Part shown: piece by piece, positions 12,662 through 58,160 of the stretch | Numbering within the stretch: position 1 is the stretch's first letter | Layout of the letters: every line of letters starts with the position of its first letter | DNA from: Streptomyces sp. NBC_00708 | GTDB taxonomy: Bacteria; Actinomycetota; Actinomycetes; Streptomycetales; Streptomycetaceae | Assembly: GCA_036226585.1 (NCBI GenBank) | Contig: CP108997.1 | Coordinates: 1,612,001-1,676,000 of the forward strand | Direction of reading: 5' to 3' | Length of the DNA stretch: 64,000 nucleotides | Program-made: the position numbers and the translations under genes | The notes under the pieces: generated by a model | What the model saw: the letters and a program-made list of their open reading frames with translations, nothing else | The model's database searches: none | What the model was told of the DNA's origin: nothing

Positions 12662-14473
12662 ATGCCGCTGAACCGAAGGACGTTCCTGGGGACATCGGCC
12701 GCGGCCGGCGCGGGTGCGGTGGTGGTGGGCGGTGCGGCGTCGCCCGCCCAGGCGCACGGCCGTGGGCACGGTCATGGTCACGGGCGTCCGCAGAAGCGGT
12801 ACTCGTTCACCGTGATGGGGACGACGGACCTGCACGGGAACGTCTTCAACTGGGACTACTTCACGGATGCCGAGTTCGACGACAAGGACCACAACGACGT
12901 CGGTCTGGCGAAGATCTCGACGCTGGTGGAGCAGGTGCGGCGCGAGAAGGGCCGTCACAACACGCTGATGATCGACGCGGGTGACACGATCCAGGGCACG
13001 CAGCTGTCGTACTACTACGCGAAGATCGATCCGATCACGGCGAAGCGTGGTCCGGTGCATCCGATGGCGCAGGCGATGAACGCGATCGGGTACGACGCGG
13101 CGGCGCTGGGGAACCACGAGTTCAACTACGGGATTCCGGTGCTGCGGAAGTTCGAGGAGCAGTGCGATTTCCCGCTGCTGGGGGCGAATGCGCTGGATGC
13201 GAAGACGTTGCGGCCGGCGTTCGCGCCGTATGTCATCAAGAAGCTGCGGACGCCGCACGGGCGTGATGTGAAGGTGGCGATTCTTGGGCTGACGAATCCG
13301 GGGATCGCGATCTGGGACAAGGCGAACGTGGGCGGGAAGATGGTGTTCCCGGGTCTGGAGGAGCAGGCGGCGAAGTATGTGCCGCGGCTGCGTTCGATGG
13401 GCGCGGATGTGGTGATCGTGTCGGCGCACTCGGGGAACAGTGGGACGTCGTCGTACGGGGATCAGATTCCGTATGTGGAGAATGCGGCGGGTCTGGTGGC
13501 GGAGCAGGTGCCGGGGATCGACGCGATTCTGGTGGGTCACGCGCATCTGGAGATTCCCGAGTACTTCGTGGAGAACAAGGAGACCGGGAAGAAGGTCGTG
13601 CTCTCGGAGCCGTTGAAGTGGGGGCAGCGGCTGACGCTGTTCGACTTCGATGTGGTGTGGGAGAAGGGCCGCTGGGTGGTCGAGAAGGCCGGTTCGCGGG
13701 TGTTGAACTCGAACACGGTGGCGGAGGACCGGAAGATCACGAAGATGCTGGCGGACGAGCACAAGAAGGTTGTGGCGTACGTCAACCAGGTGATCGGTAC
13801 GGCGGCGTCGGAGATGACGACGGCGGAGGCGGCGTGGAAGGACGAGCCGATCATCGATCTGATCAACGTCGTCCAGGCGGAGACGGTGAAGGCGGCGCTG
13901 GCGGGTGGTGAGTACGCGGAGCTGCCGGTGCTGTCGCAGGCGTCGTGCTTCTCGCGTACGGCGCGGATTCCGGCCGGGAACGTGACGATCAAGGATGCGG
14001 CGGCTCTGTACCCGTTCGAGAACACGCTGGAGGCGCGTCTGGTGACGGGTGCGCAGATTCTGGATTACCTGGAGTTCTCGGCGAAGTACTACGTGCAGAC
14101 GGCGGCGGGTGCTCCGGTGGATCCGGAGAAGCTGACGAATGCGGAGAACACGCCGGATTACAACTATGACGCGGTGTCGGGGCTGACGTACGAGATCGAT
14201 ATCGCGAAGCCGGTGGGTTCGCGGATCGTGAATCTGTCGTTCGGGGGGAAGCCGGTCGACCCGAAGGCGCAGTTCGTGCTGGCGGTGAACAACTACCGGG
14301 CGAGCGGTGGGGGTAATTTCCCGCATGTTCCGGCGGCGAAGCAGCTGTGGGCGAATTCGGAGGAGATCCGGAACACGATCATCGCCTGGGTGCAGGCGAA
14401 GGGTTCGGTGGACGGTGCGGAGTTCGCTTCGGTGGACTGGCGGCTGACGCGGGACGGTGTTCCGGTGTTCTAG
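12662..14473 (+). CDS. Tat-exported 5'-nucleotidase / metallophosphoesterase
   Basis: 603 residues from ATG 12662 (GGGAG ribosome binding site upstream). Tat signal peptide RRTFLG (residues 5-10), hydrophobic stretch, likely cleavage after SPAQA near residue 31, then a His/Gly-rich segment GRGHGHGHGRPQ. The calcineurin-like metal site is TTDLHGN (54-60), DAGD (105-108), GNHEFN (150-155) and later GHAHLE. The C-terminal half is the 5'-nucleotidase substrate domain (SCFSRTARIPAG, then ALYPFENTLEARLVTGAQILDYLE). It should hydrolyse nucleoside monophosphates or cyclic 2',3'-nucleotides outside the cell to scavenge phosphate and nucleosides. Monocistronic with a strong terminator. Confidence 0.93.
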   Translation: MPLNRRTFLGTSAAAGAGAVVVGGAASPAQAHGRGHGHGHGRPQKRYSFTVMGTTDLHGNVFNWDYFTDAEFDDKDHNDVGLAKISTLVEQVRREKGRHNTLMIDAGDTIQGTQLSYYYAKIDPITAKRGPVHPMAQAMNAIGYDAAALGNHEFNYGIPVLRKFEEQCDFPLLGANALDAKTLRPAFAPYVIKKLRTPHGRDVKVAILGLTNPGIAIWDKANVGGKMVFPGLEEQAAKYVPRLRSMGADVVIVSAHSGNSGTSSYGDQIPYVENAAGLVAEQVPGIDAILVGHAHLEIPEYFVENKETGKKVVLSEPLKWGQRLTLFDFDVVWEKGRWVVEKAGSRVLNSNTVAEDRKITKMLADEHKKVVAYVNQVIGTAASEMTTAEAAWKDEPIIDLINVVQAETVKAALAGGEYAELPVLSQASCFSRTARIPAGNVTIKDAAALYPFENTLEARLVTGAQILDYLEFSAKYYVQTAAGAPVDPEKLTNAENTPDYNYDAVSGLTYEIDIAKPVGSRIVNLSFGGKPVDPKAQFVLAVNNYRASGGGNFPHVPAAKQLWANSEEIRNTIIAWVQAKGSVDGAEFASVDWRLTRDGVPVF

Positions 14474-49629: not shown

Positions 49630-49723
49630 GGCCTATCCCTCTCCCCTGCTTCCGGAGACGGACTCCTGCCCGCCCGCCCCCGCTCGACACCCTCGAAAGT
49701 ACGCGCGAAAAATCGCTCCTGCC

Positions 49724-49781
49724 AGCAAGGAAGGCCGTACTTACCACCCTGAGTAACCGGATAGGTACGGCTTCCCTTGCT
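49724..49781. promoter_or_regulatory. long imperfect inverted repeat between VIT and the ADP-ribosylglycohydrolase operon
   Basis: AGCAAGGAAGGCCGTAC (49724-49740) and GTACGGCTTCCCTTGCT (49765-49781) are near-complementary, and the match extends a few bases inward (TTA/TAGG). It occupies the middle of the divergent promoter region. Operator, or cruciform or hairpin in a leader. Confidence 0.45.
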
Positions 49782-49901: not shown

Positions 49902-51197
49902 ATGGAGACAGTCGCAGGAAATCCGACGGCGCCGCGGGCGGGCGGCACACACACGGCACGGCTCCCGGACGCCCCGGACCGGGGCGGGCCCCGCGACCGG
50001 GCCAGGGGCGCCCTGCTCGGCCTCGCGGTCGGGGACGCGCTCGGCGCCCCCGCGGAGAACATGCGGCCCTCCGAGATCCGCCGCCGCTGGGGACGGATCG
50101 AGGGCTTCGTCAGCGACGACCCGGCGGGCACCGACGACACCGAGTACGCGATCTTCTCCGGGCTGCTGCTGGCCCGGCACGGCTCGGACCTGACCGTCAC
50201 CGACGTCGAGCGGGCCTGGCGGCTGTGGATCGCCGACCTGGACGAGGGGCCGTTCCGGGGCGCCGGCTTCAGCGAGCGCGGCACGCTGGAGAACCTGCGC
50301 CGGGGCCTGGCCGCCCCGATCTCCGCCCAGCACCGGCACGCCTGGAGCGACGGCCTGGCGATGCGGGCCGCGCCCTTCGGCGTCTTCGCGGCCGGCCGCC
50401 CCGCCGAGGCGGCACGGCTGGTCGCGGTCGACGGCCGGGTCAGCCACGAGGGCGAGGGCATCTACGGCGGCCAGGCGGTGGCCGCCGGGGTGGCCGCCGC
50501 GATGACGGGCGCCGGGGTCACCTCGGTGATCGCCGCCGCGCTCTCCGTCATCCCCATGGACTCCTGGACGGCCCGCTCGCTGCGCCGCGCGGTGACGGCG
50601 GCGCGGCGCCCGTACCCCGACCGCCTCACCGGGGAACGCGCGGTCCGCTCGGCCGTGGTGGTCGGCGGCTACCCGTGGACGGACCTGGCACCGGAGGCGG
50701 TGGGCCTGGCGTTCGGCGCCTTCGCGGCGGCGCGCGGCGACTTCCGTACGGCGGTGCTGATGGCGGTCAACATGGGCCGGGACGCCGATACGACGGCCGC
50801 GGTGGCGGGTGCCCTGTCCGGCGCCCTGCACGGCGCGTCGGCGATCCCGCGCATCTGGTCGGACGCGATCGGCCCGGTACGCGGAAGCTGCCTGCCCTCG
50901 ATGCGGGGCCACCACGTGGTGGACATCGCGGACCTGCTGGTGGCGGGGGCCGCCGAGGCGGCCGCACCCGGCGAACCGCCCCCTCGCGCGCCGGGGGCCG
51001 GCCCGGCGGCGGGCACGGACGAAGGGGCGGGCCGCAGCTCGGCGGCGGACGGCGGGCCCGGCCCCGGGCGGGATCCGGCAGACCCGGACGGACCGGCGGG
51101 CCGCCCCCCGGCCGGGGGCGCGGAGCCGGCCTCCGCAGCGGCCGGGCCCGCACGGCCGGGCGCCCGCCCCACCGGCGCCGGGGCGGTGTCCCGGTGA
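49902..51197 (+). CDS. ADP-ribosylglycohydrolase-family protein 1 (canonical metal site)
   Basis: 431 residues from ATG 49902 (GAAGG upstream). ARH/DraG fold: GLAVGDALGAPAE (40-52), first metal motif TDDT (77-80), second metal motif GRDADT with Asp294 and Asp296, then AVAGALSGALHG. All di-magnesium ligands are present, so it should be active. The last ~110 residues are a disordered Pro/Ala/Gly tail. ARH enzymes remove ADP-ribose or related ribosyl groups from proteins, nucleotides or small molecules. First of seven overlapping genes. Confidence 0.88.
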   Translation: METVAGNPTAPRAGGTHTARLPDAPDRGGPRDRARGALLGLAVGDALGAPAENMRPSEIRRRWGRIEGFVSDDPAGTDDTEYAIFSGLLLARHGSDLTVTDVERAWRLWIADLDEGPFRGAGFSERGTLENLRRGLAAPISAQHRHAWSDGLAMRAAPFGVFAAGRPAEAARLVAVDGRVSHEGEGIYGGQAVAAGVAAAMTGAGVTSVIAAALSVIPMDSWTARSLRRAVTAARRPYPDRLTGERAVRSAVVVGGYPWTDLAPEAVGLAFGAFAAARGDFRTAVLMAVNMGRDADTTAAVAGALSGALHGASAIPRIWSDAIGPVRGSCLPSMRGHHVVDIADLLVAGAAEAAAPGEPPPRAPGAGPAAGTDEGAGRSSAADGGPGPGRDPADPDGPAGRPPAGGAEPASAAAGPARPGARPTGAGAVSR

Positions 51198-52459
51198 GCG
51201 GCCGGCGCGCCCGCGTCGAGGGGCTGCTGATCGGGCTGGCCGCCGGGGACGCCGCGGGGTGGCCGGCGGCGCGGCACCGGGCGGCCCGAATGCCGGAGTG
51301 GACCCGGCGCCTGACCCGTGAGCTGGACACCTTCGCCGAGCAGAACGCGACGACCACGCTCCCCGTACCCATCGCGCTCAACCAGCCGCCCGAACCGCTG
51401 CGGCTCGGCCCGTCCGACGACGCCGAGTGGGCGGCGTTCGCGGCGGCGACCGTACTGGCGGCGAACGGACCGGGGCAGGTGCGGGCCGGGGCGGGCTCCG
51501 GACCCGGACAGCCGCGGCCCGACGCGGACGGCGTCGACGGACGGGTGCGCGCCGCCGTGGCCGGGGCCTGGAACGCGCTGGCCGCCGAGGTCGCCGCCGC
51601 CGCGGCCCGCGCGCCCGAGGTGGAGGCGGCGGTGCTGCCGCTGCGCGCCCGGATCTCGGTGCGGGCGGGGCTCGGCAACCTCGCCGCCGGGCTCCGGCCG
51701 CCCGCCACCGGACACGACAACCCGCACTACTTCGACGACGCGGCGTGCGTACGGGCGGCCGTGCTGGCGGTCGTGCACCCGGGCGACCCCGGCGCGGCGG
51801 CGGACCTCGCGGAGTTCGACGCGCGCTACACGCAGGACGGCGACGGGGTGCACGGGGCGCGGGCGATGGCCGCCGCGATCGCCGGGGCGCTCGGCGGGGC
51901 GGACGTCGACACGGCGGTGAACGCCGCGCTCGCCCAGCTCCCCGACGGCACCGAGATCGCCCGCAACGCGGCCCACGCGGTCCGGATCGCCCGGGAGTTC
52001 GCCGGGGAGCGGGCCGGCGCGTTCGCCCTGGTCCCGGTCCTGGAACACCAGATCGTGGACCACGTCTACAGCTACGGGATCGCCGCCGCCGAGACCGTAC
52101 CGGTCGCCCTCGCCCTGGCCACCGCGTCCCGGGGCGACATCGCGCAGGCCGTGCCCGCGGCGGCCTGCCTGTCCCGGGTCGCGGACTCGGCGCCCGCCCT
52201 GGCCGGGGCGCTGACCGGGACGCTGGGCTCGATCGGTTCCGTGCCCGACGGCTGGCGCGAGACCTGCCGGACCCTCGCCGGCTGCGCGCTGCCCCGGCTC
52301 GCGGGCACGGATCTGCTCGAACTCGCCGGGCTGCTGGCAGACACGGAACCGGCACCCATGGGTGGACAATTCGGACATGACTTCCACCGTGCCCCCGGCG
52401 CCCACGACGTCCCCCTCCCCCACGACAGCCACGACACCCGCGGCGCCCACGCTCGATGA
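51194..52459 (+). CDS. ADP-ribosylglycohydrolase-family protein 2 (degenerate metal site)
   Basis: 421 residues from GTG 51194, overlapping gene 1 by four bases (GTGA). The fold is recognisable: GLAAGDAAGWPAA (14-26) and SDDA (74-77) instead of TDDT. The second motif reads RVADSAPALAGAL, so the first Asp is Val329 while Asp331 and Ser332 remain. One metal ligand is thus lost. It may be inactive, partner-bound or differently specific. The C-terminal 80 bases overlap the next gene. Confidence 0.8.
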   Translation: MSGRRARVEGLLIGLAAGDAAGWPAARHRAARMPEWTRRLTRELDTFAEQNATTTLPVPIALNQPPEPLRLGPSDDAEWAAFAAATVLAANGPGQVRAGAGSGPGQPRPDADGVDGRVRAAVAGAWNALAAEVAAAAARAPEVEAAVLPLRARISVRAGLGNLAAGLRPPATGHDNPHYFDDAACVRAAVLAVVHPGDPGAAADLAEFDARYTQDGDGVHGARAMAAAIAGALGGADVDTAVNAALAQLPDGTEIARNAAHAVRIAREFAGERAGAFALVPVLEHQIVDHVYSYGIAAAETVPVALALATASRGDIAQAVPAAACLSRVADSAPALAGALTGTLGSIGSVPDGWRETCRTLAGCALPRLAGTDLLELAGLLADTEPAPMGGQFGHDFHRAPGAHDVPLPHDSHDTRGAHAR

Positions 52460-53588
52460 CCGGATCGCGGGCGCCCTCGTCGGCGCCGCGGTCGGCGACG
52501 CGCTCGGCGGCCCGGTCGAGGGCCGCCACCCGGACCAGATCACGGCGCGCCACGGCGGCCGGATCACCGGGATCGTCGGCCCCTGGGACGGCGACGACTG
52601 GCGCACCGCCCGCCCGATCGCCCCGTACCACAAGGGAGATGGGCATGTCACCGACGACACCCTGATGACCCACGCGCTGGTCCGGGTGTACGGGAAGGTG
52701 CGCGGCCATCTCGACGCGTACGCGGTCGCCGACCACCTCGTACCGGAGATGATCGGCGAGCCGCGCTGGATTCCGGAGCTGGAGGCGGAGGCGCTGCCGC
52801 TCCAGCGGGTCTTCCTCGCGGAGAAGTGGATCGTCGCCCGGCTGCACTACGGCCACGTCGACCCGCGCGAGGCGGGCTCCGGAAACATCGTCAACTGCGG
52901 GGCCGCGATGTACATGGCCCCGGTCGGTCTGGTGAACGCCGCCCATCCGCGGGCGGCGTACGCCGAGGCGATCGACGTCGCGGGCGCCCATCAGTCGAGT
53001 TACGGCAGGGAGGCGGCGGGCGTCTTCGCGGCGGGGGTCGCCGCCGCCTGCGCGCCCGGGGCGACGCCCGCCTCGGTCGTCGAGGCGTGTCTGTCGCTCG
53101 CCAAGGACGGCACCCGCTCCGCCATCGAGGCGGTCTGCGAAACGGCCGCCCGCCACCAGGACTTCGAGGCGGCGCTCGTCCCGCTCCGCGAGGCCGTCGC
53201 CCCCTTCGACACCGTCGGCCCCGACTACCGCGCCCCCTCGCTCGGCGCCCGTCGCCCCTCCCGGCTGCACGCCATCGAGGAGCTGCCCGTCGCGCTCGGC
53301 ATGCTGCTCGTGGCCGGCGGGGACTACCGGCGGGCGGTCCTCGGCTCGGTCAACTACGGGCGCGACTGCGACTCGATCGCCACCATGAGCGGCGCGCTCA
53401 CGGGCGCCCTGCACGGCGAGCGGGCCGTCCCCGCCGACTGGGCGGCGACGGTCGCTGAGGCCAGCCGCCTCGATCTGCGCGCCCCGGCCCGGACGCTGGC
53501 GGAGGTCGCCCGCGAGGTGTTCGCCCGGGACACCGCCCGCCGCCGCACCCATGAGGCCGCCTTCGCGACGCTGGCGGGGACATCGTGA
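52377..53588 (+). CDS. ADP-ribosylglycohydrolase-family protein 3 (canonical metal site)
   Basis: 403 residues from ATG 52377 (a GTG at 52362 is possible). It starts inside gene 2, overlapping by 83 bases. A Thr/Pro/Ser linker (residues 1-25) precedes GAAVGDALGGPVEG (36-49), TDDT (92-95) and GRDCDS with Asp330 and Asp332. All metal ligands are present. GSGNIVNCGAAMYMAPVGLVNA is typical of the COG1397 subgroup. Confidence 0.87.
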   Translation: MTSTVPPAPTTSPSPTTATTPAAPTLDDRIAGALVGAAVGDALGGPVEGRHPDQITARHGGRITGIVGPWDGDDWRTARPIAPYHKGDGHVTDDTLMTHALVRVYGKVRGHLDAYAVADHLVPEMIGEPRWIPELEAEALPLQRVFLAEKWIVARLHYGHVDPREAGSGNIVNCGAAMYMAPVGLVNAAHPRAAYAEAIDVAGAHQSSYGREAAGVFAAGVAAACAPGATPASVVEACLSLAKDGTRSAIEAVCETAARHQDFEAALVPLREAVAPFDTVGPDYRAPSLGARRPSRLHAIEELPVALGMLLVAGGDYRRAVLGSVNYGRDCDSIATMSGALTGALHGERAVPADWAATVAEASRLDLRAPARTLAEVAREVFARDTARRRTHEAAFATLAGTS

Positions 53589-54964
53589 CCGCGGCGGTGC
53601 GCGTGACCTGGGTGCAGCCGGAGGACCTGGTGGGCCACGAGCTGCGGCAGGCCGACGAGGACGGGCGCGACGCACGCGCCCTCGCACGCCGGTGGTACGA
53701 GGCCGGCGGCTCCCCCGCCCCGGAGCGCGCCGGCGCCTCCGATCCCGGTGCCCCGCCCGGACTCCGCGCCGTCGCCGAACGGCTGCTGGACGAACTCGCC
53801 CTGCTGGAATCCCCGCTGGCCGGCGACGAACCGGAGGGCCTGGACGCGATCCGGGCCGCCTGCCCGCAGTGGCCGCACGCCCGGAGCGGCCCGGCGGCCG
53901 GCCGGGAGCGGCTGCACGCGGCCTGGCTGGGCCGCGCCGCCGGCTGCCTGCTGGGCAAACCGGTCGAGAAGCTGCCCCTGGAAGGCATCCGCGCCCTGGC
54001 CCGCGCCACCGGCAACTGGCCGCTGGACACCTGGTTCACCGCCCGGGGCCTGCCCGCTCCGCTGGCCGCCACCTATCCGTGGAACCGGCGCTCCGCGGCC
54101 ACCTCGCTGGCCGAGAACATCGACGGGATGCCCGAGGACGACGACCTCAACCACCCGTTGCTCGCCCTGCTGCTGCTCCGGCGCCACGGCACCTCGTTCA
54201 CCACCGCGGACCTGGCCCGGCTGTGGCTGGACGAGCTGCCGGCGGGGCGTACGTTCACCGCCGAGCGGATCGCGTACCGCAACCTGCTCGACGGCATCGA
54301 GCCACCGGACACCGCCCGGTACCGCAACCCGTTCCGGGAGTGGATCGGCGCGCAGATCCGGGCCGACGTGCACGGCTGGACCCGGCCCGGCGACCCGGCG
54401 GGCGCGGCGGAGCAGGCGTACCGCGACGCGGTCCTCACCCACACCGGGAACGGCGTCTACGGCGCGATGTTCACGGCGGCGGCGCTGGCCGAGGCCGCCG
54501 CGGGCGAGACCGATGTGCACGGCTGCCTGGCCACCGGCCTGCGCGTGGTGCCGCCGCGCTCGCGGTACGCCCGAGCGGTACGGGACGGCATCGGCACCGC
54601 CCGCGAGGAAAGGGACTTCGATACGGTCGTCGACCGGTTGCACGCGGCGTACGGCAGGTATCACTGGGTGCATGTGCTGCCCAACGCGGCCCTGCTGGCC
54701 GCCGCCCTCACCCACGCCGACGGCGACTTCACCGGCTCCGTCTGCAAGGCGGTCTCCGGCGGCTGGGACACCGACTCCAACGGCGCGACCGCCGGTTCGC
54801 TCGCCGGGCTGCTCGCCGGGCGGCCGGACGCGCTGCCCGAGCGGTGGACCACCCCGCTGAAGAACCGGCTCGCCACGTCCGTCCCCGGCTTCGACGGGGC
54901 CGGCTTCGACACCCTGGCCGCCCTGACCCACCGGCTCACCCACGAGGAGGCACTCCGCCCATGA
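53585..54964 (+). CDS. ADP-ribosylglycohydrolase-family protein 4 (divergent, N-terminally extended)
   Basis: 459 residues from GTG 53585, overlapping gene 3 by four bases. About 110 extra N-terminal residues of unknown fold precede GRAAGCLLGKPVE (117-128), where the usual Asp of GDALG is Cys121. Metal motifs are EDDD (184-187) and WDTDS with Asp395 and Asp397. The site is probably functional, with a distinct substrate pocket. It has the lowest resemblance to gene 1 of the four. Confidence 0.82.
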   Translation: MTAAVRVTWVQPEDLVGHELRQADEDGRDARALARRWYEAGGSPAPERAGASDPGAPPGLRAVAERLLDELALLESPLAGDEPEGLDAIRAACPQWPHARSGPAAGRERLHAAWLGRAAGCLLGKPVEKLPLEGIRALARATGNWPLDTWFTARGLPAPLAATYPWNRRSAATSLAENIDGMPEDDDLNHPLLALLLLRRHGTSFTTADLARLWLDELPAGRTFTAERIAYRNLLDGIEPPDTARYRNPFREWIGAQIRADVHGWTRPGDPAGAAEQAYRDAVLTHTGNGVYGAMFTAAALAEAAAGETDVHGCLATGLRVVPPRSRYARAVRDGIGTAREERDFDTVVDRLHAAYGRYHWVHVLPNAALLAAALTHADGDFTGSVCKAVSGGWDTDSNGATAGSLAGLLAGRPDALPERWTTPLKNRLATSVPGFDGAGFDTLAALTHRLTHEEALRP

Positions 54965-55845
54965 CCAGGATCGCGGTGCTCGGCAGCACCAATATGGATC
55001 TGGTGGCCTACGTAGACCGGGCCCCGGAACGCGGACGGACCGTCACCGGACGGGAGTTCCGCACCGTCCCCGGCGGCAAGGGCGCCAACCAGGCCGTCGC
55101 CGCCGCCCGCGCGGGCGGTGACGTGATGATGATCGGCGCGGTCGGCGACGACGAGTACGGCGTACGGATGCGGGAGAACCTGGAGCACTCCGGCGTCGAC
55201 ACCGATCTGCTGCACACCGCCGAGGGCTCCAGCGGCACCGCGCACATCGTGGTCGACGCCAAGGGCTCCAACGCGATCGTGGTCATCCCCGGCGCCAACG
55301 GCACCGTCACCGCGCTCGGACCCGGCGAGATCGCCGCCATCGCCGAGGCCGACCTGCTGCTGCTCCAGCTGGAGCTGCCGCTGTCCGCCGTGACCGAGGG
55401 CGCCCGCGCCGCCCACGCCCAGGGCGTACGCACCCTCCTCACCCCCTCCCCCGTCCAGGAGCTGCCCTGCGAACTCCTCGACCACATCGACCTGCTGATC
55501 CCCAACGAGCACGAGGCGGCCGAGCTGTCCGGCTACGACGACCCGCACGCGGCGGCCGAGATCCTGCTCGGCCGGGTCCCGGCGGTGCTCATCACGCTCG
55601 GCTCGAAGGGCTGCCTGTACGCGGCCCGGGGCAGCCGCACCATCCACTTCCCCGCCCCGGACGTCACCGCCGTCGACACCACCGGCGCCGGGGACACCTT
55701 CGTCGGCACGCTGGCCGTGGCGCTCGGCGAGGGGCGGCCGATCCCGCAGGCCGTCGCCTGGGCCTCGGCCGCCGCCGCGCTCTGCGTACAGAAACCGGGC
55801 GCCTCGGTCTCCATGCCGTACCGCAGCGAAATCGACGCCGCGTGA
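54961..55845 (+). CDS. rbsK: ribokinase-family sugar kinase (PfkB)
   Basis: 294 residues, ATG overlapping the preceding TGA (ATGA). Substrate motif VPGGKGANQAVAAARAGG near 36-53 and catalytic DTTGAGD (239-245, base Asp245). GSTNMDLV at the N-terminus is ribokinase-like. It phosphorylates ribose at C5. After four ARH-like enzymes, the ribose could come from the released N-glycosidic product. No ribose transporter is adjacent. Confidence 0.9.
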   Translation: MTRIAVLGSTNMDLVAYVDRAPERGRTVTGREFRTVPGGKGANQAVAAARAGGDVMMIGAVGDDEYGVRMRENLEHSGVDTDLLHTAEGSSGTAHIVVDAKGSNAIVVIPGANGTVTALGPGEIAAIAEADLLLLQLELPLSAVTEGARAAHAQGVRTLLTPSPVQELPCELLDHIDLLIPNEHEAAELSGYDDPHAAAEILLGRVPAVLITLGSKGCLYAARGSRTIHFPAPDVTAVDTTGAGDTFVGTLAVALGEGRPIPQAVAWASAAAALCVQKPGASVSMPYRSEIDAA

Positions 55846-57041
55846 GCGCCCCCGCGGCGCCGCCGCTGACCGGACTGCGGGTCGTCGATCTCGCCACGCT
55901 CTTCGCGGGGCCGCTCTGCGCGACGATGCTGGGCGACTTCGGCGCCGAGGTGATCAAGGTCGAGCATCCGACGCGCCCCGACCCCTCCCGGGGACACGGG
56001 CCCGCCAAGGACGGCATCGGTCTGTGGTGGAAGCTCCTCGGCCGCAACAAGCGCAATCTGACGCTCGACCTGTCCGCTCCGGAGGGCCGCGATCTGCTGC
56101 TGCGGCTCGCGGCGGACACCGATGTGATCATCGAGAACTTCCGGCCGGGCACGCTGGAGCGGTGGGGGCTGGGGCCCGATGAGCTGCACGCGGTCAACCC
56201 CCGGCTCGTGCTGGTGCGCGTCACGGGCTTCGGCCAGTTCGGCCCGTACTCCCACCGGCCGGGCTTCGGGACGCTCGCCGAGGCGATGAGCGGCTTCGCG
56301 GCGATCACCGGGGAGCCGGACGGGCCGCCGACCCTGCCGCCGTTCGGGCTGGCCGACTCCATCGCCGCGCTCGCCACGGCGTACGCGGTGATGGCGGCGC
56401 TGGCCGGCCGGGACCGCACCGGGGAGGGTCAGGTCGTCGACATGGCGATCATCGAGCCGATCCTGACCGTGCTCGGCCCGCAGCCGCTCTGGTACGACCA
56501 GTTGGGTTACGTACAGCCGCGCACCGGGAACCGGTCGCGCAACAACGCCCCGCGCAACACCTACCGCACCTCGGACGGGCAGTGGGTGGCGGTCTCCACC
56601 TCCGCGCAGTCCGTCGCGGAGCGGGTGATGCGGCTGGTCGGGCGGGCGGAGCTGATCGACGAGCCGTGGTTCGCCTCCGGCGCCACCCGCGCCGAGCACA
56701 GCGACGAGCTCGATGAGGCCGTCGGCCACTGGATCGCGCGGCACTCCCGGGAGGAGGCGCTGTCCGCGTTCGAGAAGGCGGAGGCCGCGATCGCGCCCAT
56801 CCATGACGTCCGGGACGTGATGGAGGACCCGCAGTACCGCGCGCTGGACTCGGTCACCGAGGTCGACGATCCGGAGCTGGGCCCGCTGCGGATGCAGAAC
56901 GTCCTCTTCCGCCTCTCCCGGACCCCGGGGGCGATCCGCTGGGCGGGCCGCCCGCACGGGGCCGACACCGAGGAGATCCTCACCGAGCTGGGGCTGAGCG
57001 GGCCCGAGATCTCGGCGCTGCGGGCGGAGCGGGTGCTGTGA
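55842..57041 (+). CDS. class III CoA-transferase (CaiB/BaiF)
   Basis: 399 residues from GTG 55842. GLRVVDLATLFAGPLCATMLGDFGAEVIKVE is the family N-terminus; nucleophile Asp172 in FGLADSIAALATAYA; RNKRNLTLDL is conserved. It transfers CoA between carboxylic acids through an aspartyl thioester. Overlaps the ribokinase by four bases and the lyase by four bases. Its substrate pair is unknown; pairing with a CitE-type lyase suggests dicarboxylic (citramalate/itaconate-like) chemistry. Confidence 0.92.
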   Translation: MSAPAAPPLTGLRVVDLATLFAGPLCATMLGDFGAEVIKVEHPTRPDPSRGHGPAKDGIGLWWKLLGRNKRNLTLDLSAPEGRDLLLRLAADTDVIIENFRPGTLERWGLGPDELHAVNPRLVLVRVTGFGQFGPYSHRPGFGTLAEAMSGFAAITGEPDGPPTLPPFGLADSIAALATAYAVMAALAGRDRTGEGQVVDMAIIEPILTVLGPQPLWYDQLGYVQPRTGNRSRNNAPRNTYRTSDGQWVAVSTSAQSVAERVMRLVGRAELIDEPWFASGATRAEHSDELDEAVGHWIARHSREEALSAFEKAEAAIAPIHDVRDVMEDPQYRALDSVTEVDDPELGPLRMQNVLFRLSRTPGAIRWAGRPHGADTEEILTELGLSGPEISALRAERVL

Positions 57042-57850
57042 ACGCGGCGGCCCCCCTCACCCTGCTGTATGTGCCAGGCGACCGGCCGGACGTGGTCCGC
57101 AAGGCCGCCGCCTCGGGGGCGGACGTGGTGATCGTCGACCTGGAGGACGCGGTCGCCCCCGACCGCAAGGAGTACGCCCGTTCGGCGACGGCGGAGCTGC
57201 TGGCCGACCCGCCGTCCGCCACGGCGCCGCCGGTGCATGTCCGGGTCAACGACGAGGCGGACGTCCTGGCCCTGGCCGGGCTGCCGGGGCTCGGCGGGCT
57301 GCGGCTGCCGAAGATCACCCACGCCGCGTCCGTGCACCACATCGCGGCGCTGGCCCCCGGGGTCGCCCTCTGCCCGCTGCTGGAGTCGGCCCTCGGTATC
57401 GAGCACGCGTACTCGGTGGCCTCCGCACACCCCCAGGTCCGCGCCATCGCCCTGGGCGAGGCGGACCTCCGCGCCGATCTGGGCGTACGGGAGGACGCGG
57501 GGCTCGACTGGTCGCGCAGCCGGGTGGTGGTCGCGGCCCGCGCGGCCGGTCTGGCGCCGCCCACGCAGTCGGTGTTCGCGGACGTCCGGGACCTGGACGG
57601 CCTCTGGTCCTCCTGCGCCCACGGCCGGGCGCTGGGCTTCCTGGGCCGGGCGGCGATCCACCCCCGCCAGCTCCCGGTGATCGAACGCGCCTTCCGCCCG
57701 ACGCCGCAGGAGGTCGAGGCTGCCTGGGAGATCGTCGAAGCGGCCCGCGAGCAGGCGGGAGCGCAGGCCCTCCCGGACGGCCGCTTCGTCGACGCGGCGG
57801 TGGTCGCGCAAGCGCGGCGGACGCTGGCGCTGGCCCAACGAAAGCGGTGA
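57038..57850 (+). CDS. HpcH/HpaI or CitE-like CoA-ester lyase
   Basis: 270 residues from GTG 57038, overlapping the CoA-transferase (GTGA). LLYVPGDRPDVVRKAAASGADVVIVDLEDAV is the CitE start, with the metal acids in LLESALGIEHAY and GEADLRADLG. These enzymes cleave citryl-, malyl- or citramalyl-CoA. Last of the seven-gene operon. Confidence 0.9.
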   Translation: MNAAAPLTLLYVPGDRPDVVRKAAASGADVVIVDLEDAVAPDRKEYARSATAELLADPPSATAPPVHVRVNDEADVLALAGLPGLGGLRLPKITHAASVHHIAALAPGVALCPLLESALGIEHAYSVASAHPQVRAIALGEADLRADLGVREDAGLDWSRSRVVVAARAAGLAPPTQSVFADVRDLDGLWSSCAHGRALGFLGRAAIHPRQLPVIERAFRPTPQEVEAAWEIVEAAREQAGAQALPDGRFVDAAVVAQARRTLALAQRKR

Positions 57851-57867
57851 CCTGGCCCCCGTCCCAC

Positions 57868-58115
57868 CGCTTTGTCCTCAAGCGCCGGACAGGCTGAATG
57901 TCCGCCGCACCGCTTGTCCTCAATCGCCGGACGGCTGGATTTCCACCACACCGCTTGTCCTCAATCGCCGGACGGCTGGATTTCCACCACACCGCTTGTC
58001 CTCAATCGCCGGACGGCTGGATTTCCACCGCACCGCTTGTCCTCAATCGCCGGACGGCTGGATTTCCACCGCACCGCTTGTCCTCAATCGCCGGACGGCT
58101 GGATTTCCACCGCAC
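57868..58115. repeat. 41-bp tandem repeat array
   Basis: Five 41-bp units start at 57911, 57952, 57993, 58034 and 58075 with CGCTTGTCCTCAATCGCC, each differing by one or two bases. A diverged sixth copy begins at 57868 (period 43). The core is the same CTCAATCGCCGGAC sequence found at three other sites in this window. Confidence 0.92.
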
Positions 58116-58160
58116 CGCCCACCTCAGCCGGCGGAGCCGCTTCAACGGCGATCAGCCACC

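Follow-up and report, generated by a model that had tools for sequence, protein, structure and literature searches.

A seven-gene operon of Streptomyces sp. NBC_00708, in which four genes encode proteins of the ADP-ribosylglycohydrolase (ARH) fold, is conserved and most likely catabolic, and we put the chances at about even that it is a catabolic route for an imported glycoside. The operon lies in a stretch of 64,000 nucleotides (CP108997.1, positions 1,612,001-1,676,000, forward strand), hereafter referred to as the window, the numbering of which is used below. Its seven frames are open across 49902-57850 on the + strand. All six junctions overlap, in order by 4 (GTGA), 83, 4 (GTGA), 4 (ATGA), 4 (GTGA) and 4 (GTGA) bases. 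We read the operon as a catabolic route because relatives carry a LacI-family regulator and an ATP-binding cassette (ABC) sugar importer directly upstream of the same genes, and this evidence favours an imported glycoside over ADP-ribosylated compounds.

The first four proteins are ARH1 (49902..51197; PF03747 3e-61, 208.1 bits), ARH2 (51194..52459; 2e-28, 100.3 bits), ARH3 (52377..53588, with an alternative GTG start at 52362; 1.3e-49, 169.9 bits) and ARH4 (53585..54964; 1.7e-47, 162.9 bits), all of which exceed the curated PF03747 cut-off of 26.2 bits. They are followed by a ribokinase of the PfkB family (54961..55845; PfkB 5.6e-71), a CaiB-type family III CoA-transferase (55842..57041; PF02515 CoA_transf_3 1.4e-124, 416.4 bits, curated cut-off 23.3 bits) and a CitE/HpcH-like acyl-CoA lyase (57038..57850; PF03328 HpcH_HpaI 3.6e-31), hereafter CaiB and CitE. 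A profile search of the 7.65 Mb genome found eight PF03747 matches, four of them in the operon. Frames, overlaps and profiles agree with a preliminary description of the window, which had named seven overlapping genes for four ARH-fold proteins, a ribokinase, a CoA-transferase and a CitE-like lyase.

Gene order and the upstream importer

A search with ARH4 matched 23 of 61 genomes of the family at E 1e-20. From these, 20 regions were taken, 13 with ARH4 orthologues (at least 69% identity) and seven with distant relatives (37-47%). The order ARH1-ARH2-ARH3-ARH4-(ribokinase)-CaiB-CitE is kept in all 13 orthologue loci, four of which (L040, L042, L044 and L048) have no ribokinase, and no such operon is found in the seven regions with distant relatives. 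From a scan of named genomes we used the best 80 loci of a longer list. These are the closest matches, hence a biased sample, and all are labelled Streptomyces except one, [Kitasatospora] papulosa. None of these 80 loci departs from the gene order; 78 have both CaiB and CitE, 79 have ARH3 and 54 have the ribokinase. ARH1 or ARH2 is missing in 11 and 4 loci, respectively, which is accounted for by contig ends. Since all 13 family loci share the gene order and further families of the class have it too, the operon is more than a chance arrangement, and the earlier claim of one conserved unit is upheld. The module is also patchy, since ARH3 matched a single genus in a phylum-wide draw (10 of 396 genomes at E 1e-50) and other families were matched only in a class-wide draw searched with an ARH4 alignment (67 of 394 genomes at E 1e-60).

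In other genera of the same family (L047-L051), and likewise in L109 and L110, a LacI-family regulator, permeases and a solute-binding protein are encoded upstream of ARH1. Regulator and importer are adjacent to the operon in five of the 13 family loci. The LacI regulator and the solute-binding protein of the relatives were confirmed by profile. The importer is CUT1-like, and its binding protein resembles the sugar-binding proteins of ABC importers; the best models for the regulator include CytR, UriR and RbsR, all far under cut-off. Among the best 80 loci, five (L157, L160, L169, L180 and L181) have LacI, permease and binding protein directly upstream, and L179 has LacI alone.

The class-wide draw extends this picture. 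We chose 20 divergent regions, 15 of which hold the full-length ARH4 type, and in all 15 the ARH genes have LacI, permease and binding protein upstream. Twelve of these loci have both ARH1 and ARH2, and the other three, L236, L238 and L239, have neither. The three loci in which ARH3 and ARH4 are the only ARHs look like the oldest versions and have CaiB-CitE and a glycosidase-like protein alongside. The ribokinase is found in 10 of the 15 (absent in L232, L236, L237 and L239; a contig end cuts L229), and CaiB with CitE in 12 (cut off in L229; placed upstream of LacI in L237). The steady core is the importer together with ARH3, ARH4, CaiB and CitE. In L157 and L160 the importer-headed operon is flanked by gltB and lgt and so occupies the chromosomal site that the operon has in the window, which is most simply explained if the window's lineage lost the operon head, regulator and importer, in place. 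From presence and absence we infer that the importer-headed version is the older form and that ARH1 and ARH2 joined ARH3 and ARH4 later.

The glycosidase-like protein gave low Foldseek TM-scores, of at most 0.36 for its best ten matches. Its VIA alignment, which covers residues 48-412 only, and its invariant Asp and Glu residues suggest a GH13-like protein, with a presumed catalytic assignment. In one genus, a gene for a dihydrodipicolinate synthase (DHDPS)-family aldolase lies upstream of LacI in the same direction (L111 3888-4802, genome G006), and it might belong to the cluster. Two regions of a Jiangella-like genome (G313), L240 (1-19901) and L241, each contain a distant ARH4 relative with LacI, a PfkB kinase and ABC parts. 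L240 also encodes two more ARHs, three in all, and an alpha-amylase-domain protein. An ARH of 651 residues in L240 (PF03747 2.4e-12) lies beside a ribose-type permease (PF02653) and has, by eye, an export-signal-like start. It is probably exported, to judge from this start, and outside the cell an ARH would hardly be in a position to undo ADP-ribosylation within it.

The seven proteins

The metal-ligand motifs of the ARH family are, as we take them and at the positions we assume, a Glu, an Asp-Asp and an Asp-x-Asp (DxD). In our alignments these motifs are invariant in the covered rows of ARH1 (45-46 of 46) and intact in 53 of 53 rows of both ARH3 and ARH4. In ARH2 (49 rows in total), none of the 48 rows that cover the Glu ligand has it (A, V, G or R instead), and none of the 46 that cover the first Asp of DxD has that residue (V, L or I instead). 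By profile, ARH2 is a member of PF03747, and its predicted metal site is degenerate, with two ligands lost. The four ARHs are not equivalent enzymes. Because its full metal site is gone, ARH2 more likely works together with ARH1 than as an enzyme by itself. The earlier proposal of four ARHs in one route has to be modified, since ARH2 lacks metal ligands and ARH1 and ARH2 are absent in 3 of the 15 divergent loci. ARH3 is the most constant ARH of the cluster, with 54-83% identity to the window in a 16-sequence alignment of Streptomyces plus other families. In ARH4, the ARH domain spans residues ~105-455 and is preceded by a conserved N-terminal extension of ~100 residues (about 1-102).

The ARHs could be true ADP-ribosylhydrolases that reverse the ADP-ribosylation of proteins, nucleic acids or antibiotics, the metabolic genes being targets or bystanders. 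We regard this as improbable. It is in line with PF03747 membership, with the intact metal sites of ARH1, ARH3 and ARH4, and with the structural match of ARH4 to DraG and to the known hydrolase that is also named ARH3. However, no operon ARH reaches the equivalog models of this activity: the highest score is 78 bits (ARH1) against 337 for DraG (TIGR02662), and 57 against 490 for the ADP-ribosylarginine hydrolase Tri1 (NF041672). The relatives have a sugar importer and LacI, and there is no transferase among the seven genes. Furthermore, it is the genome's best-scoring ARH (C1:1361662), outside the operon, that adjoins Nudix-like and NadR-like frames, identified by eye (L001, C1:1360162-1364079), a neighbourhood that looks like an NAD-type context. 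The literature can be cited on both sides. SCO2028-SCO2031 are listed among eight uncharacterised DraG/ARH homologues of S. coelicolor in the available text of PMC9411070; PMC5087735, in its available part, also counts these proteins among the hydrolases of ADP-ribosylation, but omits SCO2031. SCO2028 and SCO2030 were inactive on uracil-alpha-ADP-ribose, the single substrate concerned in the accessible portion of PMC13036486. Mapped by gene order, SCO2028 is probably ARH1 and SCO2030 ARH3, and the order SCO2028-SCO2031 fits ARH1-ARH4. This mapping used a locus of S. violaceorubidus (L194), which has no ribokinase and carries six genes between VIT1 and lgt. The ADP-ribosylated substrate that the preliminary description allowed for is not supported, as nothing points there.

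The kinase exceeds the ribokinase equivalog TIGR02152 (310.1 bits, cut-off 299.65), and its best PDB matches are ribokinases; a second ribokinase model, NF008353, lies out of reach (262.5 versus 341 bits). These results would suit salvage of a nucleoside or other N-riboside, in which the ARHs free ribose from an N-glycoside and the ribokinase captures it, as has been suggested for pairs of an ARH and a kinase such as yegUV of E. coli. According to the available text of PMC10819704, yegTUV combines an ARH and a kinase with a putative symporter for nucleosides, and the best LacI models include CytR, UriR and RbsR, though far under cut-off. Yet the ribokinase is absent in 26 of the best 80 loci as well as in L232, L236, L237 and L239. 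The importer is CUT1-like, a class that carries oligosaccharides and glycosides. A nucleobase would not require CaiB-CitE, and no deaminase or phosphorylase is found among the seven genes. We consider nucleoside salvage doubtful. Because of the 26 loci without it, ribose phosphorylation, a step of the route as first described, is not essential to the route.

CaiB has an Asp at residue 172 within the motif PPFGLAD, which we take to be the conserved Asp of family III CoA-transferases. Its best NCBIfam model, succinate--glutarate CoA-transferase, scores 243.7 bits, under the cut-off of 750, and so the profile leaves the acid of CaiB unfixed. For CitE the best NCBIfam model is RipC_Ccl, an itaconate lyase (148.5 bits, under the cut-off of 375), and the best PDB match is 8khl, an acyl-CoA lyase beta chain (6.4e-35). 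CaiB and CitE of L239, the most distant locus, have the same best models as those of the window. A profile search found no hydratase-family match among the seven operon proteins, and since the operon has no hydratase, its natural acid probably carries the 3-hydroxy group from the start. Related enzymes have been described with more than one substrate: the itaconate CoA-transferase of P. aeruginosa also takes (S)-citramalate (PMC12290011, available text), and Rv2498c of M. tuberculosis cleaves citramalyl-CoA and 3-hydroxy-3-methylglutaryl-CoA (HMG-CoA) alike (PMC6689899, available text). In L228 a short opposite-strand frame (12717-13187) lies between CaiB and CitE, which are ~800 bases apart there.

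A proposed glycoside route

What we observe of the route is the gene order, the importer context and the state of the motifs. In the route that we propose, an organic acid linked to a sugar would enter through the importer. ARH3 and ARH4, to which the ARH1/ARH2 pair would have been added later, would be cytoplasmic metal-dependent glycosidases, the target of which would be a ribofuranoside-like or otherwise cis-diol-bearing glycoside and not an ADP-ribosylated protein. The ribokinase, where present, would phosphorylate the freed sugar. CaiB would transfer CoA from an acyl-CoA donor to the freed 3-hydroxy (di)carboxylic acid, and CitE would cleave the resulting CoA ester to acetyl-CoA and a keto acid. 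The catabolic route of the preliminary description is retained on the strength of LacI and the sugar importer upstream in relatives, but without its ADP-ribosylated substrate and without an essential ribokinase.

Several points weigh against a glycoside route. We infer its chemical reactions and its substrate, all of them, and to our knowledge the characterised ARH-fold enzymes all act on ADP-ribose compounds. In the window, regulator and importer are not adjacent to the operon. A stand-alone importer is present 4.2 Mb from it (L245 6587-9650, at about 5.853-5.856 Mb of C1), with a binding-protein homologue of 57% identity (392 of 427 residues) and a permease of 67%, and without LacI or ARH genes; it may or may not serve the operon. 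A shared operator was sought but not found, and in the genome of the window the upstream regions of operon and stand-alone importer, the conserved block ahead of ARH1 included, have no common word of at least 9 bases. Across 150 Streptomyces genomes, 79 have the importer binding protein and ARH3, 19 the binding protein only, 32 ARH3 only and 20 neither, a weak co-occurrence that is little above expected (Fisher p 0.018, uncorrected for relatedness). Some absences of ARH3 may be assembly gaps, because 9 of the 19 importer-only genomes have more than 500 contigs. One genome, G117, has both adjacent and stand-alone importer copies. The CaiB-CitE pair is not in view in two of the best 80 loci (L180 and L188) nor in two of the 15 divergent ones (L232 and L234). 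In genome G072 (L106) the operon is split, with CaiB-CitE beside lgt and ARH3 (C1:8840773) ~4.8 Mb away. Finally, in the CitE tree the CaiB-CitE of L089 and L094, which stand in other contexts, nest within the operon group.

These last points bear on whether the operon is one route. Two modules might do no more than share a transcript, namely a sugar module of ARHs and kinase, and a distinct module in which CaiB and CitE act on a dicarboxylate of the itaconate or citramalate type. The split in G072 would fit this, as would the CaiB-CitE-like pairs that lie without ARHs beside other genes in L089, L093, L094, L096 and L100. In L089 the pair is accompanied by an RraA-like gene and a DctM transporter gene, and L097 has an MmgE/PrpD gene between the CaiB-CitE-like genes, a gene that also occurs in known itaconate clusters (PMC12290011, in its available part). 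Nevertheless, both parts are kept in 78 of the best 80 loci and also in divergent families, for example in L239 of the small genome G441. On 34-row trees the operon labels change twice for CaiB and three times for CitE, compared with a mean of 8.0 for shuffled labels; the placement of L239, L099, L100 and L101 on these trees is unsure because of long branches. We judge two modules unlikely. The earlier placing of CaiB and CitE in the same unit as the ARHs stands for most loci, though not for the four without the pair in view or for the pairs found elsewhere. Break-up of the gene order with the last two genes in other contexts, which the preliminary description regarded as speaking against it, does occur, but not as a rule.

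A broader reading of the glycoside route, which we offer tentatively and think less likely than its alternatives taken together, is that the ARH fold serves on a large scale in a second role, as metal-dependent glycosidases with which bacteria break down sugars. The compound imported by the operon would then be a 3-hydroxy dicarboxylic acid in furanosidic linkage, such as one akin to citramalate or malate with a ribofuranosyl group. Its sugar would be freed by ARH3 and ARH4 and by the pair of active ARH1 and inactive ARH2, and its acid burnt via CoA transfer and retro-Claisen cleavage. If this were true, most Streptomyces DraG homologues, which are taken as evidence of rich ADP-ribosylation, would be unrelated to it, the inventory of ADP-ribosylation hydrolases of S. 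coelicolor (SCO2028-SCO2031) would need revision, and a fold known for signalling would acquire a function in metabolism. The route would open a new way from a glycoside to acetyl-CoA, and its substrate would be abundant enough to maintain the cluster across several actinobacterial families.

Genomic setting and known systems

A VIT1-family gene, identified by profile, is divergent from ARH1. The other neighbours were read from their translations as what we take to be gltB, lgt, a DsbA-like gene and trpA, and the neighbours fit the trp region of Streptomyces. Between the VIT1-like gene and ARH1 there is a block at 49721..49745 that is conserved when 70 upstream regions of Streptomyces, that of the window among them, are aligned; it may serve the regulation of either gene. 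In the gap that separates CitE from the lgt-like gene, a 41-base unit is repeated in tandem at 57865-58118 (6.1 copies, 96% matches), and the word CGCCGGACGG from this unit is found again at several other places in the window.

We found no description of this gene set in openly licensed PubMed Central papers, in agreement with the earlier statement that no described pathway has it. Four known systems are similar in part. The operon proteins ARH1, ARH3 and ARH4 share fold, profile and metal-ligand motifs with the hydrolases DraG, ARH1 and ARH3. They differ in scoring far under the DraG and Tri1 equivalog cut-offs, in a context of sugar import, in the N-terminal extension of ARH4 and in the absence of ligands in ARH2. 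The yegTUV genes of E. coli, to which the available text of PMC10819704 assigns no functions, resemble the operon in that an ARH-family gene lies beside a sugar kinase and a transporter. However, yegTUV has one ARH while the operon and its relatives have two to four, and its nucleoside-type symporter and GntR-type regulator contrast with the ABC importer and LacI-type regulator of the relatives. Neither CaiB nor CitE is described there in that text.

The itaconate/methylsuccinate cluster Ict-Ich-Ccl also has a CoA-transferase beside a CitE protein of the citramalyl-CoA-lyase type (PMC12290011 and PMC6689899, available parts), and RipC_Ccl is the best NCBIfam model for CitE of the window. In contrast to this cluster, the operon has no hydratase, its CaiB and CitE are well under the specific cut-offs, and ARHs with, in relatives, a sugar importer take the place of dicarboxylate uptake. 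The relatives are similar in layout to the LacI-regulated CUT1 operons for glycoside utilisation in Actinobacteria, with LacI, two permeases, a solute-binding protein and intracellular hydrolases in one run. They differ from these in that the main hydrolases are of the ARH fold, and the proposed route would end in CoA transfer and cleavage by a lyase.

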